Part shown: positions 5,917 through 21,580 of the stretch, in pieces | Position numbering within the stretch: the first letter of the stretch is position 1 | Layout of the letters: every line of letters starts with the position of its first letter | Source of the DNA: a virus | IMG/VR virus record: IMGVR_UViG_3300003883_000048 | Span: 1-25,834 of that record | Length of the DNA: 25,834 nucleotides | Strand: one strand, 5' to 3' | Program-made: the position numbers and the translations under genes | The notes under the pieces: generated by a model | The model's database searches: none | What the model saw: only the letters and a program-made list of their open reading frames with translations | Told to the model about the DNA's origin: nothing

Positions 5917-6228
5917 CTATTCTTCGTCAGATTTCTCAGGAGCCGAATTCCGAGCGGCGATTTGAGCTCTTGCAGCGTTTATCAAAAATGCCCGCTCTTG
6001 TTCCTCTAGTTCGCTCCATACAGCCACAAGCTCTGGATCGGGGGCGCTAGGGCTTTGCTCAAAGAACTTTAGTATCAGCGGTATTTCTCTGGCCTGAGGC
6101 TGGCGCACACCGGACAGCATCTTTGAAATAATATCCGGCTTGACGCCAAGCGCCTCGGCTAGGGCCACTCTCGCCCCGCGCTCGCTCCCCAAGCGTTCTT
6201 TTAGCCAATCTGCTGTGATCACTTCCAT
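5917..6228 (-). CDS. Short XRE-family repressor (CI-like), no peptidase domain
   Basis: A 103-residue DNA-binding protein from ATG 6228. Residues 5-60 are a Cro/C1-type HTH (WLKERLGSERGARVALAEAL, GVKPDIISKMLSGVRQP), followed by a helical segment and a charged Glu/Arg-rich tail. It lies between two divergent operator/promoter clusters, the classic place of the lysogeny repressor. The frame is open to ATG 6270, but that start would lie within one operator and encode another, so 6228 is preferred. No S24/LexA-like autocleavage domain is present, so RecA-triggered self-cleavage seems excluded; induction may need an antirepressor or simple dilution. No strong RBS precedes it. A leftward TATTAT at 6263-6258 could serve as the maintenance promoter -10. 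Confidence 0.8.
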   Translation of the reverse strand: MEVITADWLKERLGSERGARVALAEALGVKPDIISKMLSGVRQPQAREIPLILKFFEQSPSAPDPELVAVWSELEEQERAFLINAARAQIAARNSAPEKSDEE

Positions 6229-11200: not shown

Positions 11201-11337
11201 TGGCAAAAACCTTGTATGAAGGCGTGCGTGGTGACGGTAAGGGGCTGCGGGTGTTTGTTCTCGGGAAGCCAGTAATCCCAAATTTGCCCGCCAAAGAACC
11301 TAAAGGTGGTAGCGTTATCAAGGGGTGCGGCAAGTGA
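11200..11337 (+). CDS. Tiny basic Gly/Lys-rich protein (45 aa)
   Basis: ATG 11200 shares a base with the previous TAA, and its TGA overlaps the GTG start of the NusG-like gene. The product (MAKTLYEGVRGDGKGLRVFV, LGKPVIPNLPAKEP) looks like a small beta hairpin with a disordered basic tail. It may exist mainly to couple translation into the NusG-like gene. Function unknown. Confidence 0.5.
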   Translation: MAKTLYEGVRGDGKGLRVFVLGKPVIPNLPAKEPKGGSVIKGCGK

Positions 11338-11921
11338 CCAACACATACGCAATAAATGTCACGCGCGGTAAAGAGTTCGCAGTTGAGGCAGAGCTGCAGG
11401 AAATGGGTCTACACCCGTGGGTGGCGCGCCGACTGGACAGCAAGAAGATCACGCAGCAAAAAGAACGTGTGTGGTTTGACACCCCTTATGTGTCCAAGCT
11501 GGTGTTCTGTGTCTTTCCGGCTGTTTACTGGAATGACGTCGTGGCCCTGAAGCATGTCATAGGTAAGCCATTTGAGATGACGCGCCTCGGCATATCGGGT
11601 GCGCCCGCGTTTCGGATTGAGCGCAAAGACGGCAGCTTCAAGGATGTGCCGCAGGTTTTCGGCCTGAACGACTTCAAGTCTGCAGTAGAGGCGGAATACA
11701 GGGACGCAGAGCGCAAGAGGGCGAATAACCTATATCAATGCGCCTACACCCCAGGTCAGGCGCTAGAGGTGCTGTCTGGGCAGTTTGCTGGCCTGCCTGT
11801 TGAGTTTAAACAAGCAATCCGGCGCGCGCACCAAGACTATGCCCGGTTGGTTGTCGAAGTGGATATCATGGGGGCCAAGCGCTCGGTCGAAATGGACCCG
11901 GACCAACTAGGTGTTGCGTAG
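11334..11921 (+). CDS. Phage NusG-family transcription (anti)termination factor
   Basis: A 195-residue protein with the two NusG parts. The NGN-like domain (about 1-110) opens TYAINVTRGKEFAVEAELQE and includes WVARRLDS and SKLVFCVFPAVYW. A KOW domain (about 139-192) reads YTPGQALEVLSGQFAGLPVE, then VVEVDIMGAKRSVEMDPDQL. Specialised NusG paralogues (RfaH, LoaP) bind the elongation complex at a nucleic-acid signal near the promoter and make it ignore pauses and terminators. As the last gene of the early operon, directly before a structured leader with a terminator and the late genes, it sits where lambdoid phages encode Q. Late antitermination is therefore the likely job, but is inference. Start GTG 11334 is coupled to the previous stop; GTG 11325 is possible. 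Confidence 0.85.
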   Translation: MTNTYAINVTRGKEFAVEAELQEMGLHPWVARRLDSKKITQQKERVWFDTPYVSKLVFCVFPAVYWNDVVALKHVIGKPFEMTRLGISGAPAFRIERKDGSFKDVPQVFGLNDFKSAVEAEYRDAERKRANNLYQCAYTPGQALEVLSGQFAGLPVEFKQAIRRAHQDYARLVVEVDIMGAKRSVEMDPDQLGVA

Positions 11922-11985
11922 TGTCGCAATCTATGGTATTGCCTTCGGCAAGTTGTATCCCCCATGTGCGAGAATGGGGCAGCTT

Positions 11986-12028
11986 ACGGTCGGAGCGCAC
12001 CCGAAAGGGTTAGGCAGCGCCAGACCGT
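11986..12028 (+). promoter_or_regulatory. Nested hairpin with GAAA tetraloop, just before a terminator
   Basis: ACGGTC (11986-11991) pairs with GACCGT (12023-12028); inside it GCGC (11995-11998) pairs with GCGC (12017-12020), and directly inside that ACCC-GAAA-GGGT (11999-12010) forms a GNRA-capped stem. Its last two bases are also the first two of the terminator stem, so the two structures compete slightly. A candidate recognition element for the NusG-like protein. Confidence 0.55.
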
Positions 12029-12051
12029 TGAACCTATGTTCAACACTTTTT
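12027..12051 (+). terminator. Intrinsic terminator upstream of the late genes
   Basis: GTTGAAC (12027-12033), CTAT loop, GTTCAAC (12038-12044), then ACTTTTT. A perfect seven-pair stem with a tetraloop and a five-T tract. The stem is not GC-rich, so strength is moderate. It stands between the early operon (ends 11921) and the terminase genes, so late genes read from upstream must pass it. Confidence 0.65.
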
Positions 12052-12384
12052 CGGTTTGTTGTGCATTTGAGATAGCATCAGCGAGGGACCCAAGGGGTCT
12101 CAATCTGTGCAGTTGTTGATGCTTTCTGAGGTGCGGCGCCGGGGCAAAGGTGCACTGACCGCGAGACAGGTCGTACTGGCTGCAACGGGTCTCTCGCATC
12201 TCAACAGGTCATCACTCGTAAGGGGTGATAGGGCGCCTGACCCGATGCGCGTGTCACCGCTAAAGGGTGAAGGCATCAATTTCAGGAAGTCGGATGCATG
12301 CGGCGACAGGGGTGCGACTGTTCAACGCGCAGCTAACATAAACCATCAGGAGGCCAACAACCCCGCAAGGGGACTGGACCGATC

Positions 12385-12630
12385 ATGGCAACACGCGGCA
12401 GAACAGCAGGTTTTAAGATGTCCGACGAGCATCGGACTAAAATCGCAAACTCTCAAATTCTCAGGCGTTTAATAGGTCACGTCGAGGGGACAGAGGATAT
12501 GACATCGACGCAGGTTACAGCGGGCATCGCGCTTCTCAAGAAGGTGTTACCCGATGTGGCCTCTGTCGAGGTGACAGGCAATGAAGACGCACCCTTAGCC
12601 ATGAAGGTAGTCATTGGCGGGGACGCTTAG
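12385..12630 (+). CDS. Terminase small subunit-like protein, short
   Basis: An 81-residue protein directly before TerL. The sequence TRGRTAGFKMSDEHRTKIAN, ILRRLIGHVEGTEDMTSTQV, then TAGIALLKKVLPDVASVEV resembles the short TerS-like proteins of alphaproteobacterial podovirus-type prophages. It would recognise packaging DNA and guide TerL. It is much shorter than typical small terminases, so it may be only the DNA-binding/oligomerisation core. The nearest SD-like sequence, AAGGGG at 12367-12372, is 12 bases from the ATG and buried in the CCCC-GCAA-GGGG hairpin; AGGAGG at 12348-12353 is too far. Translation may therefore depend on RNA structure. Its 3' end overlaps TerL by 17 bases. Confidence 0.7.
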   Translation: MATRGRTAGFKMSDEHRTKIANSQILRRLIGHVEGTEDMTSTQVTAGIALLKKVLPDVASVEVTGNEDAPLAMKVVIGGDA

Positions 12631-13894
12631 CGTCGAAATCATCCCGCGCAAACCTTTCCGGTCCTTCCTGTTATCAACAACGCGGTGGGCCTGTCTTGTT
12701 TGCCATCGGCGCGCCGGGAAAACAGTCGCCTGCATTCAAAAGCTCATCAAGGAGGCTTTGGAATGTGAGCGCAAAGAGGGGCGCTATGCTTACATCGCCC
12801 CGACCTACATTCAGGCCAAGGACGTCGCCTGGGCGTACCTAAAAGAATACACCTACATGATCCCCGGTGTGCGGGTCATGGAGAGCGAGCTAAGCGTCAC
12901 GTTTCCCAACGGCGCGCGCATCAAGCTCTACGGTTCAGACAACTACGATCGCTTGCGCGGCCTGTATCTTGACGGTTGTGTCATTGACGAGGCGGGAGAT
13001 CAGCACCCTAGAGCATGGCCGGAGGTTATCCGCCCAGCTCTGGCCGACCGTCAAGGGTGGGCGGTATTTATCGGCACCCCAAAGGGCAAGAACGGCTTTT
13101 ACAAGATTCACAAGGCCGCTCTAGACAAAGAAGATTGGTTTTCTCTCGTTTTAAAGGCAAGCGAGAGTGGCTTGGTTGATCAGGCCGAACTTGATGACGC
13201 TAGGGCGATGCTGACGGCCAACCAATACGAGCAAGAATTTGAATGCTCTTTCGAAGCCGCAATCGAGGGTGCTTACTACGCCGAGCACATCAAAAAGGCT
13301 CGCAAAGACGGACGCATAGGCAGGGTAGCGGAAGACCCGCTGATGACGATGCGGGCAATATGGGACATCGGCGGCACTGGCCAGAAAGCTGACGCAACGG
13401 CGATTTGGGTTGTGCAGTTCATTGGCCGGGAAATCCGGTTCTTGGATTACTACGAGGCGCAAGGGCAGCCGCTTGCAACGCATGTGTCGTGGCTGCGCGA
13501 AAACGGATACGGCAAGGCGCTGTGCATCCTGCCGCATGACGGCGCGACGAATGACAAGGTGCATGACGTATCCTTTGAGAGCGCGCTAACGGATGCAGGA
13601 TTTGAGGTCGAGGTCATTGCCAATCAGGGCAAGGGCGCGGCGATGAAACGTGTTGAGGCCGCGCGGCGGCTGTTTCCGCTCATGTGGTTTAACGATGACA
13701 AGTGCTCAGCCGGGTTGGATGCCTTGGGCTGGTATCACGAAAAGCGAGATGAAGAGCGTGGGATCGGCTTGGGGCCGGAACATGATTGGTCATCTCATGG
13801 CGCAGACGCATTCGGCTTGGCTGCGGTGGCTTATGAGCAACCTAAACCAGGCAAAGGGCCTGAAGTGTTTGTGCGCAGGAAGGGCATTCTATGA
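12614..13894 (+). CDS. terL: Terminase large subunit (packaging ATPase/nuclease)
   Basis: A 426-residue motor protein. The ATPase domain has a Walker A-like CHRRAGKT (residues 30-37), a Walker B ending GCVIDEA with Asp125-Glu126, and the coupling motif GTPKGKN (154-160). The RNase H-like nuclease domain follows, with likely metal ligands Asp251 (AIWDIGG), Asp309 (LPHDGATND) and Asp398 (SSHGADAFG). It pumps DNA into the prohead through the portal encoded next. The first in-frame start is TTG 12614, overlapping the TerS-like gene by 17 bases; no ATG or GTG lies nearby before the Walker A motif. Slightly short for the family but all motifs are present. Ends in an ATGA overlap with the portal gene. 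Confidence 0.93.
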   Translation: MAGTLSVEIIPRKPFRSFLLSTTRWACLVCHRRAGKTVACIQKLIKEALECERKEGRYAYIAPTYIQAKDVAWAYLKEYTYMIPGVRVMESELSVTFPNGARIKLYGSDNYDRLRGLYLDGCVIDEAGDQHPRAWPEVIRPALADRQGWAVFIGTPKGKNGFYKIHKAALDKEDWFSLVLKASESGLVDQAELDDARAMLTANQYEQEFECSFEAAIEGAYYAEHIKKARKDGRIGRVAEDPLMTMRAIWDIGGTGQKADATAIWVVQFIGREIRFLDYYEAQGQPLATHVSWLRENGYGKALCILPHDGATNDKVHDVSFESALTDAGFEVEVIANQGKGAAMKRVEAARRLFPLMWFNDDKCSAGLDALGWYHEKRDEERGIGLGPEHDWSSHGADAFGLAAVAYEQPKPGKGPEVFVRRKGIL

Positions 13895-16185
13895 CCTCAA
13901 TCGCTACAGTTGCAGAAATGGTCCGGGAGGCCGAGCGGTATACCGACGACACGGCAGACGACCGCCTGCGCGCGATTGAATACTATCAGGGCAAGATGGT
14001 GGACGTTCCTTACGAAGAGGGGCGTTCTCGCATGGTTACGCGAGATGTGCGGGCGCACGTCAAGAAGGTGTTGCCTTCGGTCATGCGGACAATCTTCGGA
14101 TCTGACGAGGTGGTGGAGTTCCAGCCGAGTGGCCCTGGTGATGAAGAAGGGGCCGATCAGGCAAGCGATTACATCAATCGCGTTGTTATGGAAGAGTGCG
14201 GGGCGCGCAAGGCGGTTTATTCAGCTATCCACGACGCACTTTTGCTGCGCAATGGCATTCTCAAGTGGTGGTTTGAAGAAAAGCAGTGCGTCAAGTTCTC
14301 TAAGCACACTGGCTTGACTGACGATGAGGTAGCAATACTCATTCAAGGTGAGGGCGTCGAGGTCATCGAGCATGACGGATACGAGCAGCAGACCGACCTT
14401 GGGCCGGTCATGCTTCATGACGTGAAGATCAAGCGCACATTCTTGGATCAGAACATCAAAGCCGCTGCGGTGGCGCGTGAAGACTTCCTGATCCACCCAG
14501 ATGCGTTGTCCATCGAAGAGGCCACGCTAGTGGGTGAGAAGACCACAGTGCGCCGGTCAGACTTGATTGCGATGGGTTACGACCGTGATCTGATTGAAGG
14601 CTTGTCGCTGGCCGATGACGACGACTACGAGGAAGACGCTCGCCGGGATAAGGTAAGGGAACACGCCCACAATCACCGGGCAAATGACCTGATTGATTAC
14701 TACGACGTTTACGCCCGCGTAGACATGGATGACGACGGCATCGCAGAGCTACGCCATATGTGCTTTGCGGGCGGTTTGATGGAAGATAACCTCTTGCTTG
14801 ATGAGGAATGCGACGAGGTTCAGCTTTGCGATATCGCGGTGATGCGTCAGCCCCACCAGTGGGAGGCTATATCGCTCGCCGATGATTTGATGGACATTCA
14901 GCGCGGCAAGACCGTGTTTTTGCGTCAGACGCTTGACAACCTCTATTGGCAGAACAACCCGCAGCCGATCATGGGCGAGGGGGATATTGTCAACCCGGAT
15001 GCGGTCCACAACCCGGAGTTTGGCTTGCCTATCAAAGTGCGCAAGGGCGTCGATGTTCGCACCGCCATGGGTTTCAACACTGTTCCGTTCGTAGCCAAAG
15101 ACAGCTTCGGCATGATGGAATACCTCGATCAGGAGGCGCAGGATCGCACGGGTGTTTCCGATGCCTCTGCGGGGCTTGCACCAGACGCACTGCAGAACAT
15201 GACGGCCAAGGCGTCCGCTATGATTGAGCAGGCGGGCATTGGCCAGACCGAAATGATGGTGCGCACTATCGCAGACGGCTTGCAGGTGTTCTTCAAGGGT
15301 TTGCTGAAGCTGGCTATCCGCCACCAGGACAAGCCGCGCACGGTTCGCTTGCGTGACGAGTGGGTGACATATGACCCACGCCACTGGAACGCCTCTATGG
15401 ACTGTAAGGTCAACACGGGCCTCGGCGCCGGTACGCGCGAGCGTGACATGATGATGATGCAGCAGGTGATCACGCTGCAAGAGAAGATGCTTGCGGGCTT
15501 TGGGCCGGACAATCCGTTTGTGAAGCCTGAGAATGTGTCCAACGCGGTCACCAAGCTGGCCGAGTCCGCAGGCTTGAAAACACCGTCCCTGTACTTCACG
15601 GAGCCTGACCCTGAAGAGATTGCAGCCAAGATGGAGGCGATGCGCAACGCGCCCGACCCTGAACAGGTCAAGATGGAAATGCAGATGCAAATCGAGCAGG
15701 CCAAGATGCAAAACGACATGCAGAAGGCCGAAATGCAGATGCAGGTTCAGCGTGATAAAGAAGCAGCGCAGATGGAGGCTGACTTGCAGGTCAAGCGCGC
15801 TGACATAGAGGCGGGCAAGATTGCGCGTCAGGAGGAGTTCGCTGCTCAGATCATGTCCAAGGATCGTGATGTGTCCTTGGAGCGCGAGAAGATGGCCATG
15901 CAGGAAGGCTTGAAGCGTCTGGAAATCGCCACCAAGGCCAGAATTGAGGCTGCGAAACTTACCGATAAAGAGCTTGCTGCTGAAGTTGATGCGCTGGCGA
16001 CAGACCTTGATAGCGATGGGCTGTCCGATGTCCTGCGCGAGCGCCCCGACCCGAACAGAGGGATTTTGGAGGCCATGGCCCGCCTGACAGAGGTTATTGC
16101 GGCTAACTCAGGTCCGCGCGCTATGCGTGTGGTGAAAGATGAAGACGGTGAAATCATCGGCGCTGCCCCTGAGGTGATGCAGTGA
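13891..16185 (+). CDS. Portal protein (P22-like, large)
   Basis: A 764-residue portal, the dodecameric ring through which DNA enters and leaves. The N-terminal part (ADDRLRAIEYYQGKMVDVPY, SRMVTRDVRAHVKKVLPSVM, then RTIFGSDEVVEF) is typical of P22-type portals, and the middle contains AQDRTGVSDASAGLAPDALQ, also usual. From about residue 581 to 690 there is a long Met/Gln/Lys-rich coiled coil (KMEMQMQIEQAKMQNDMQKA and on), which probably forms the portal barrel or a disordered tail inside the head. Coupled to terL by ATGA. No frame problems; long reverse-strand open frames across this gene are shadows. Confidence 0.9.
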   Translation: MTSIATVAEMVREAERYTDDTADDRLRAIEYYQGKMVDVPYEEGRSRMVTRDVRAHVKKVLPSVMRTIFGSDEVVEFQPSGPGDEEGADQASDYINRVVMEECGARKAVYSAIHDALLLRNGILKWWFEEKQCVKFSKHTGLTDDEVAILIQGEGVEVIEHDGYEQQTDLGPVMLHDVKIKRTFLDQNIKAAAVAREDFLIHPDALSIEEATLVGEKTTVRRSDLIAMGYDRDLIEGLSLADDDDYEEDARRDKVREHAHNHRANDLIDYYDVYARVDMDDDGIAELRHMCFAGGLMEDNLLLDEECDEVQLCDIAVMRQPHQWEAISLADDLMDIQRGKTVFLRQTLDNLYWQNNPQPIMGEGDIVNPDAVHNPEFGLPIKVRKGVDVRTAMGFNTVPFVAKDSFGMMEYLDQEAQDRTGVSDASAGLAPDALQNMTAKASAMIEQAGIGQTEMMVRTIADGLQVFFKGLLKLAIRHQDKPRTVRLRDEWVTYDPRHWNASMDCKVNTGLGAGTRERDMMMMQQVITLQEKMLAGFGPDNPFVKPENVSNAVTKLAESAGLKTPSLYFTEPDPEEIAAKMEAMRNAPDPEQVKMEMQMQIEQAKMQNDMQKAEMQMQVQRDKEAAQMEADLQVKRADIEAGKIARQEEFAAQIMSKDRDVSLEREKMAMQEGLKRLEIATKARIEAAKLTDKELAAEVDALATDLDSDGLSDVLRERPDPNRGILEAMARLTEVIAANSGPRAMRVVKDEDGEIIGAAPEVMQ

Positions 16186-20590: not shown

Positions 20591-21580
20591 ATGCCTACAT
20601 CAGCAAATACCTTCGTGACCAGCACGGCAAAGCTGAACCGCGAAGAACTGTCTGACGTTGTGGACCTTACACAGCGTTCTGACACCCCGATCTACTCAAT
20701 GATCGAAAACACGTCAGCGTCTTCTGTGTTCCCGGAGTGGGGTGTGGAAGAATTTGATACGCCTGGCGACAACATTCAGTCTGAAGGCCGTGACTATGCG
20801 TTCACGACTGAAACGCCGAATGATCGCTACGGCAACCACACGCAGATCATGGAAAAGGAAGGCAAGTTTTCGAACACGCAAGAAGCTGTTTCGAACGCTG
20901 GTCGCTCTGAACGCATCAACCGCAAGAAGGTTCTCAAGGGTCTTGCTCTGAAAACTGACGTTGAGTTCTCCATGGTCACGGCTAACCCATCGCTGGGCGG
21001 CGCGGATCGACAGTCTGGCTCTCTGTCCACTTGGGCAGAAACCAACGTCTCGCGCGGTGCGGGTGGCGCAAACGGCGGCTATAACGATGTCACGAAAGTG
21101 ACTGCGGCGCCAACGGACGGCACACAGCGAGCGTTTACTAAAACGCTTCTGGATGACCTTCTGCAGAGTGCGTATTCGTCTGGCGCGAAGCTTGATCACA
21201 TGTTCTTCTCGCCGTACAACAAGCGTGTGTTTGCAGAGTTCATGTCTGACACCAACGTTGCGCAGTTCCGCTACGCAGCCAAGGCAGGCAAGAACACGAT
21301 TGTGGCAGATGCTGAGGTCTATCTTGGACCTTTGGGCACTGTCTACGCGCACCCGAACTTTGTCATGGGCGGTTCTGCCGCCGTGGCCCGCAACGTGTTC
21401 GTGCTTGATACCAAAAAGATCAAGTGGGCATGGCTGCGCAAAGTCCAAGAAGACAAGGACCTCGCCAAGACTGGTGACTACAAGCGCTTTGTCCTTCAGG
21501 GCGAAGGCTGCGTGAAGGTCATGAACGAAAAGGCGGTCGGCGTAATCGCTGACACCTTCGGCATTGACGCCGCAACCTAA
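20591..21580 (+). CDS. Major capsid protein (SU10/DUF5309 type, HK97 fold)
   Basis: A 329-residue capsid subunit. The N-terminus (TSTAKLNREELSDVVDLTQR, SDTPIYSMIENTSASSVFPE, then WGVEEFDTP) and the ending (DLAKTGDYKRFVLQGEGCVK) are typical of the SU10-like major capsid family. The segment around 105-135 (NAGRSERINRKKVLKGLALK) fits the spine-helix region of the HK97 fold. The codon choice looks more uniform than in neighbouring genes, as expected for the most abundant virion protein. A stem-loop terminator follows immediately, which would limit downstream expression relative to capsid. Confidence 0.92.
   Translation: MPTSANTFVTSTAKLNREELSDVVDLTQRSDTPIYSMIENTSASSVFPEWGVEEFDTPGDNIQSEGRDYAFTTETPNDRYGNHTQIMEKEGKFSNTQEAVSNAGRSERINRKKVLKGLALKTDVEFSMVTANPSLGGADRQSGSLSTWAETNVSRGAGGANGGYNDVTKVTAAPTDGTQRAFTKTLLDDLLQSAYSSGAKLDHMFFSPYNKRVFAEFMSDTNVAQFRYAAKAGKNTIVADAEVYLGPLGTVYAHPNFVMGGSAAVARNVFVLDTKKIKWAWLRKVQEDKDLAKTGDYKRFVLQGEGCVKVMNEKAVGVIADTFGIDAAT

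Follow-up and report, generated by a model that had tools for sequence, protein, structure and literature searches.

The region described here lies within a 25,834-nt stretch of viral DNA, called the window below. On its left side, the window has genes for an integrase and an Erf-type annealing protein as well as a repressor-like gene, so this marine phage is probably temperate. Further right, an early operon ends in a gene for a NusG-type protein, whose GTG start (11334) overlaps the stop codon of the ORF upstream. A 463-nt untranslated gap separates this gene from the packaging genes, the first of which codes for a putative terminase small subunit with no family match of its own in Pfam or PHROG. 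The original prediction had the packaging genes following an intrinsic terminator; their order was as expected, but they begin at 12385, past the untranslated gap. Overall, a temperate podophage, probably of Rhodobacterales, seems to switch from early to late gene control in this region. The features are listed in Table 1.

Table 1. Genes and predicted elements of the control region and of the late operon
Feature	Position	Strand	Description
NusG-type protein gene	11334..11921	+	195 aa, GTG start; stop codon 11919-11921; final gene of rightward early operon
Predicted late promoter	11914..11942	+	sigma-70-type; TTG, TG and TA invariant across 7 lineages
-35	11914-11919	+	TTGCGT; overlaps stop codon of NusG-like gene
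Spacer and -10	11937-11942 (-10)	+	17-bp spacer, extended -10 TGG, -10 TATTGC
5-bp dyad	11939..11951	+	TTGCC-TTC-GGCAA; from sequence comparison; at predicted transcript start
H1, first leader RNA hairpin	11950..11985	+	outer AAGUUG/CAGCUU, inner CCCCAU/AUGGGG
H2, nested hairpin	11986..12028	+	GAAA-capped inner stem; from folding; same place in relatives
Weak terminator-like hairpin + U5	12027..12051	+	from pattern search; not above chance
Domain D, overall	12075..12202	+	diverged version of a 142-161-nt unit, read by eye
Domain D, P2	12075-12122	+	GCAUCAGC/GUUGAUGC; by eye against L021 unit 1
Domain D, P3	12128-12202	+	GAGGUGCG/CGCAUCUC; by eye against L021 unit 1
Domain E	12210..12331	+	AUCAC/GUGAU hairpin, CCUGA/UCAGG helix
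Possible H-type pseudoknot in domain E	12306-12321 with 12313-12331	+	ACAG/CUGU with UGCG/CGCA
Structured ribosome-binding site	12348..12387	+	AGGAG, GNRA-capped hairpin 12352-12380, AUG 12385
Putative terminase small subunit	12385..12630	+	first late gene, 81 aa; directly before terL, as in phiGT1
Terminase large subunit (terL)	12614..13894	+	phrog_2, 2e-34
Portal	13891-16185		phrog_1216
Major head protein	20591-21580		phrog_1328

Predicted NusG-type protein

NusG is a universal elongation factor of transcription. Its paralogues are known mostly as bacterial regulators of long capsule, toxin and antibiotic operons, and some are found on plasmids and prophages. In a PHROG search, the window protein matched phrog_23142 (1.9e-14) and phrog_6386, 'transcription antiterminator' (7.8e-8). 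The Pfam NusG model PF02357 had no match in the window, and the relative on viral contig L009 reached an E value of 0.051 at best; a sequence profile matched the NusG C-terminal domain (1nz9) weakly (E 0.0013). An AlphaFold model (mean pLDDT 84, pTM 0.61), built from a shallow alignment of seven sequences, i.e., the window protein and six viral relatives, has an N-terminal NGN domain, a helical linker of about 24 residues and a C-terminal domain modelled only as a beta KOW. The predicted fold therefore shows the NGN-then-KOW arrangement of NusG/Spt5 proteins. The top PDB matches in Foldseek were NusG (9a56, 3e-9) and RfaH (8phk, 2e-7); whole-chain TM-scores against both were low (0.3-0.4) and rmsd was high, as expected if the two domains are oriented differently. 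Given the profile and Foldseek matches, the missing Pfam match likely reflects sequence divergence rather than another fold. Judged by its modelled structure, the protein is a diverged NusG paralogue; the PHROG matches and the NGN-KOW model thus agree with the original prediction that the early operon ends in a NusG-family protein.

Relatives of this protein are present on seven viral contigs. Among annotated phages, homologues are limited to the Sulfitobacter phages pCB2047-A, pCB2047-C, NYA-2014a and phiGT1. Those of the pCB2047 phages and phiGT1 (phiGT1_67) are 27-30% identical to the window protein and occupy the same slot before the late leader. phiGT1_67 is annotated 'RfaH/NusG transcription antitermination protein', a name given by similarity alone, and two phiGT1 papers contain no discussion of it. 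A search of plasmids yielded no homologue, and neither did two scans of bacterial genomes (one per species) with short exact peptide patterns, which can miss relatives. Since no bacterial-genome relative was found, the comparisons are among viral records.

A gene-free stretch of about 0.5 kb follows the NusG-like gene in pCB2047-A, pCB2047-C and NYA-2014a, and next come a GIY-YIG gene and the terminase genes. phiGT1 has one small gene between the NusG-like gene and the leader and a second annotated ORF within the leader itself; its terS/terL lie beyond the leader, across the start of the record. These four phages share the order NusG-like gene, promoter element, leader and terminase; promoter and leader were also found in L006, L009, L010, L021 and L022. 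In the relatives, the NusG-like gene is located directly, or within about 1 kb, upstream of promoter and leader. A search for the predicted order had been proposed for related prophages; among the viral relatives, gene, signal-like hairpin and packaging genes recur in this order wherever the record extends far enough, with the terminator mostly missing. pCB2047-A and pCB2047-C are described as temperate podoviruses (PMC4047441), and phiGT1 as a lytic podovirus (PMC10386132).

Conserved promoter element and start-site dyad

Side-by-side reading of the relatives revealed a common element 3' of the NusG-like gene: TTGCG(T), 17 bp and TGGTAGCC. The corresponding window sequence is TTGCGTAGTGTCGCAATCTATGGTATTGC. 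The positions invariant in seven lineages coincide with the sigma-70 -35 (TTG), extended -10 (TG) and -12/-11 (TA) contacts, and a GCC...GGC dyad is likewise invariant across these lineages. In L021, the -35 is TTGACG and lies inside the 3' end of its NusG-like gene. The pattern TTG-N17-TGRTANCC, searched for in up to 42 kb per record, has exactly one occurrence in each of the eight matching records, located downstream of the NusG-like gene; its reversed control was found in none of them. This single copy is kept even where small genes are inserted between the NusG-like gene and the leader. The window promoter is a looser variant; TTG-N17-TGNTA has two occurrences in the whole window, both strands included. 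The element is absent from L007, whose record ends about 650 bases past the NusG-like gene.

A promoter scan with the E. coli consensus misses the site, as expected for a -10 that lacks T at -7. More than 60% of sigma-70 promoters in Alphaproteobacteria lack this T (PMC8407463). We infer promoter activity from the conservation of the element: the late transcript is predicted to start near 11949, and late transcription probably begins here instead of by read-through from the early operon. The original prediction listed no promoter between the NusG-like gene and the hairpin, and has to be corrected in this respect.

The dyad overlaps the -10 and the start region in the relatives (TAGCC-nnn-GGCTA) and is offset by 2 bp relative to that of the window; it may represent either a protein site or a bubble hairpin. 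Most relatives contain GGTAGC, which we take to be an ops-like core, and the window does not (GGTATTGCC). An RfaH ops site was also considered for the promoter-like element and dropped, since the window does not retain GGTAGC.

Leader hairpins

The 466 nt after the NusG-like gene fold better than dinucleotide shuffles (z -2.9; 0 of 100 as good). In each of the seven leaders compared, whose sequences are not all independent, the 120 nt that begin at the predicted start fold better than the shuffle average (z -0.86 to -2.11). Two hairpins account for the start of the leader. H1 can form at the equivalent place in the other six leaders, with arms that are different yet complementary: AUCCGG/CCGGAU in pCB2047, GCGC/GCGC in L009, CAUCC/GGGUG in L010 and UGAGGC/GCCUCA in L021. 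In phiGT1, its arms were read by eye, and it is not part of the minimum free energy (MFE) structure of the 150 nt folded.

H2 is the GNRA-capped nested hairpin of the original prediction, now placed exactly. Its loop varies among phages (GAAA, UCCG, AUU and others), the GNRA cap being found in the window and L006; a UNCG-capped hairpin is not conserved across the leaders compared. H2 was compared using hand-chosen arms, as MAFFT misaligned it across lineages. The MFE structure has a 3' bulge or asymmetric loop of 5-6 nt in L021, L009, phiGT1, pCB2047, L013 and L010, i.e., in six of the eight NusG-group leaders; L013 is included in this group although its record is truncated upstream and does not show the gene. 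The window and L006 have the bulged form as a suboptimal structure, 3 kcal/mol above the optimum, and for the window this counts against the proposed switch. In L011, L014 and EBPR podovirus 2, for which we detected no NusG-like gene, H2 is a plain, terminator-like hairpin with a U-rich tail and a bulge of 0-1 nt; the absence of the gene is less certain for L011 and L014, whose contigs are short. This difference in H2 according to the presence of the gene points to an RNA rather than a DNA signal, and we tentatively propose H2 as the recognition hairpin of the NusG-like protein, a candidate role that is possible though short of probable.

Terminator-like site

The intrinsic terminator of the original prediction exists as a pattern; it is weak, occurs at chance frequency and has no counterpart in most relatives. 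Between 6000 and 25834, we counted 25 terminator-like sites, compared with 20.8 +/- 4.5 in shuffles. Three of the seven pairs in its stem are G-C. The site shares its first two bases with the 3' arm of H2, so the two hairpins cannot both form fully. A U-tract after H2 is absent in pCB2047, phiGT1, L006 and L009; in L021, the sequence after H2 is GCUUUUGC. L011 and L014, which have another gene in the regulator slot, possess a GC hairpin followed by a U-rich stretch, and the corresponding hairpin of EBPR podovirus 2 is annotated as a terminator. No strong terminator conserved across the NusG group was found, which also weighs against the switch. A role of this terminator as the conserved target is not supported, as most relatives with the gene lack a comparable U-tract terminator, and it is doubtful that the NusG-like protein acts on the window site. 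From the few sequences available, the layout of promoter and terminator may be ancestral and altered in the NusG group.

Downstream domains and ribosome-binding site

The leader has no Rfam match: the covariance models of Rfam 15 gave no gathering match in the window, and only a tRNA in the relatives. A DNA-level search for the leader among phages detected only the ribosome-site hairpin and no near match. Domain D resembles a unit of 142-161 nt, composed of a U-loop hairpin, P2 and P3 with CAUAAGCGCGG...CGCGCUUAA, that is found in L001, L006, L011, L014 and L021. Domain E, with its GUCAUC hairpin and possible pseudoknot, is common only to the window and L021/L022. An alignment of the window and L021 over the downstream domains (52% identical) gave a consensus fold energy of -48.7; its column shuffles averaged -30.4 +/- 4.7, and 0 of 200 reached the observed value. 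The 19 compensatory pairs in this alignment were matched by 5 of 200 shuffles and are less decisive than the fold energy.

The structured unit (CCGCUUUUAUGUGG hairpin...CAUAAGCGCGG...CGCGCUUAA) is repeated: late leaders hold between one and three copies, and L006 has at least two (2477-2635, 2706-2864 and about 2866-2960). The L009 leader contains a tRNA-Trp gene (5989-6065). A tRNA hidden in the window leader was ruled out, as none was found.

The fold of the ribosome-binding site is kept in seven phages with changed inner stems. By bridging the intervening sequence, the hairpin would give the Shine-Dalgarno normal spacing to the AUG. The site gave only sub-threshold matches to CRISPR-repeat models in Rfam, probably by chance. 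This layout, i.e., AGGAG, a GNRA-capped hairpin, 4-7 nt and AUG, with conserved flanks GGAGGCCAACA...GACTGGACC, also occurs in L001, L002, L011, L013, L014, L015 and L016. Since phages with no NusG-like gene have the element as well, we assign it to the first late gene and not to a NusG-based switch. Domain D, too, is found in phages with no detected NusG-like gene (L011, L014 and others); part of the leader therefore serves something else.

A candidate late switch and its alternatives

In phages lambda and P22, the antiterminator Q is encoded last in the early operon and is followed by the late promoter pR', a short leader with terminator-like hairpins and the late operon. The window resembles Q-pR'-tR' in its order of putative regulator, predicted late promoter, leader and late operon. 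It differs in that the regulator is of the NusG type, a strong conserved terminator is absent (it is the one part of the layout not conserved in the NusG group) and the leader is about 430 nt long and highly structured. We moderately favor a Q-type late switch in which a NusG paralogue would occupy the slot of Q. The paralogue would be produced as the last early gene, and host RNA polymerase would initiate at the dedicated late promoter overlapping its stop codon and transcribe an untranslated, heavily folded leader of about 430 nt. Within the first 100 nt or so, the NusG-like protein would load on the polymerase, most likely via H2 and alternatively via the dyad at the transcript start. It would then stay on the polymerase and make it resistant to pausing and to termination, both by Rho and at hairpins, across the whole leader and then the long late operon. 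A NusG-based late switch was the core of the original prediction; the gene slot and order on which it drew recur in relatives, which gives the idea good grounds, and the switch having its own promoter was not anticipated.

The closest precedent is LoaP, a NusG paralogue for which a leader hairpin alone suffices to overcome NusA-stimulated termination, showing that such a protein can act through one leader hairpin (PMC12691694). In both cases, the paralogue adjoins its putative target operon and a small RNA hairpin lies in a long untranslated leader (PMC12691694). LoaP, however, binds a UNCG-type hairpin in the setting of a Gram-positive antibiotic cluster, whereas the hairpin here, in a phage of Alphaproteobacteria, has a 3' bulge and a cap that is of the GNRA type in the window and L006 but varies in other phages. 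RfaH shares the NGN-KOW fold, and RfaH-elongation complexes are among the Foldseek matches; sequence identity in these alignments is 13-15%, and the window lacks the GGTAGC motif.

RfaH loads on non-template DNA (PMC12691694), and the late-operon antiterminator might similarly be recruited by the DNA dyad (TGGTAGCC...GGCTA, non-template strand) rather than by H2, in the manner of RfaH at ops or Q at pR'. A dyad is located near the start site in all lineages, yet that of the window is shifted by 2 bp with a changed sequence (TTGCC/GGCAA), and the variation of H2 with the presence of the gene points to the RNA; we regard this route as unlikely. A further step away from the switch, the leader could be a cis-acting RNA, or one that controls translation or packaging, independent of the NusG-like protein, which would then act elsewhere, on early or host genes. 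Such RNAs have a precedent in HK022 put, a structured nascent RNA that by itself counteracts pausing and termination (PMC9378689). put serves early genes and is not known to use a phage protein; its resemblance to the leader lies in being structured nascent RNA. This possibility is in line with the finding of domain D and of the ribosome site also in phages with no detected NusG-like gene (L011, L014 and others), and with the size of the domains, which far exceeds what a recruitment signal needs. The proximity of the gene to promoter and leader in the relatives, and the variation of H2 with gene presence, make it quite unlikely.

The region might also be an ordinary operon boundary, at which the 12027-12051 hairpin and its U5 end the early transcript and the late promoter lies further downstream. 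A terminator-like site does exist at this position, but such sites occur at chance frequency and this one is not conserved, the conserved promoter is upstream of it, and the E. coli-consensus scan, weak for this host, called no sigma-70-like promoter in 12051-12385. We consider this explanation very unlikely.

Returning to the late switch, its fullest version combines several parts: the NusG paralogue would replace Q and be recruited to, and co-evolve with, a bulged leader hairpin beside a dedicated late promoter; sister phages would retain this layout of promoter and leader but combine it with another regulator and a terminator hairpin of plain form; and the leader would belong to a new family of large structured RNAs, modular and repeated in part. 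This combination as a whole is possible, and we put it forward tentatively. If true, a phage NusG paralogue acting as a late switch would join the fields of phage antitermination and of NusG/RfaH. It would also offer a compact test system for target finding, in which some 120 bp contain the end of the gene, the promoter and the hairpins.

Other proteins fill the slot upstream of terminase in L011 (3659-4177, minus strand), L029 (3688-4404), L034 (1231-1875) and L032 (3908-4426), those of L034 and L032 matching phrog_15385. Non-coding leaders come next in each case, and these proteins are candidate alternative late regulators of related podophages.
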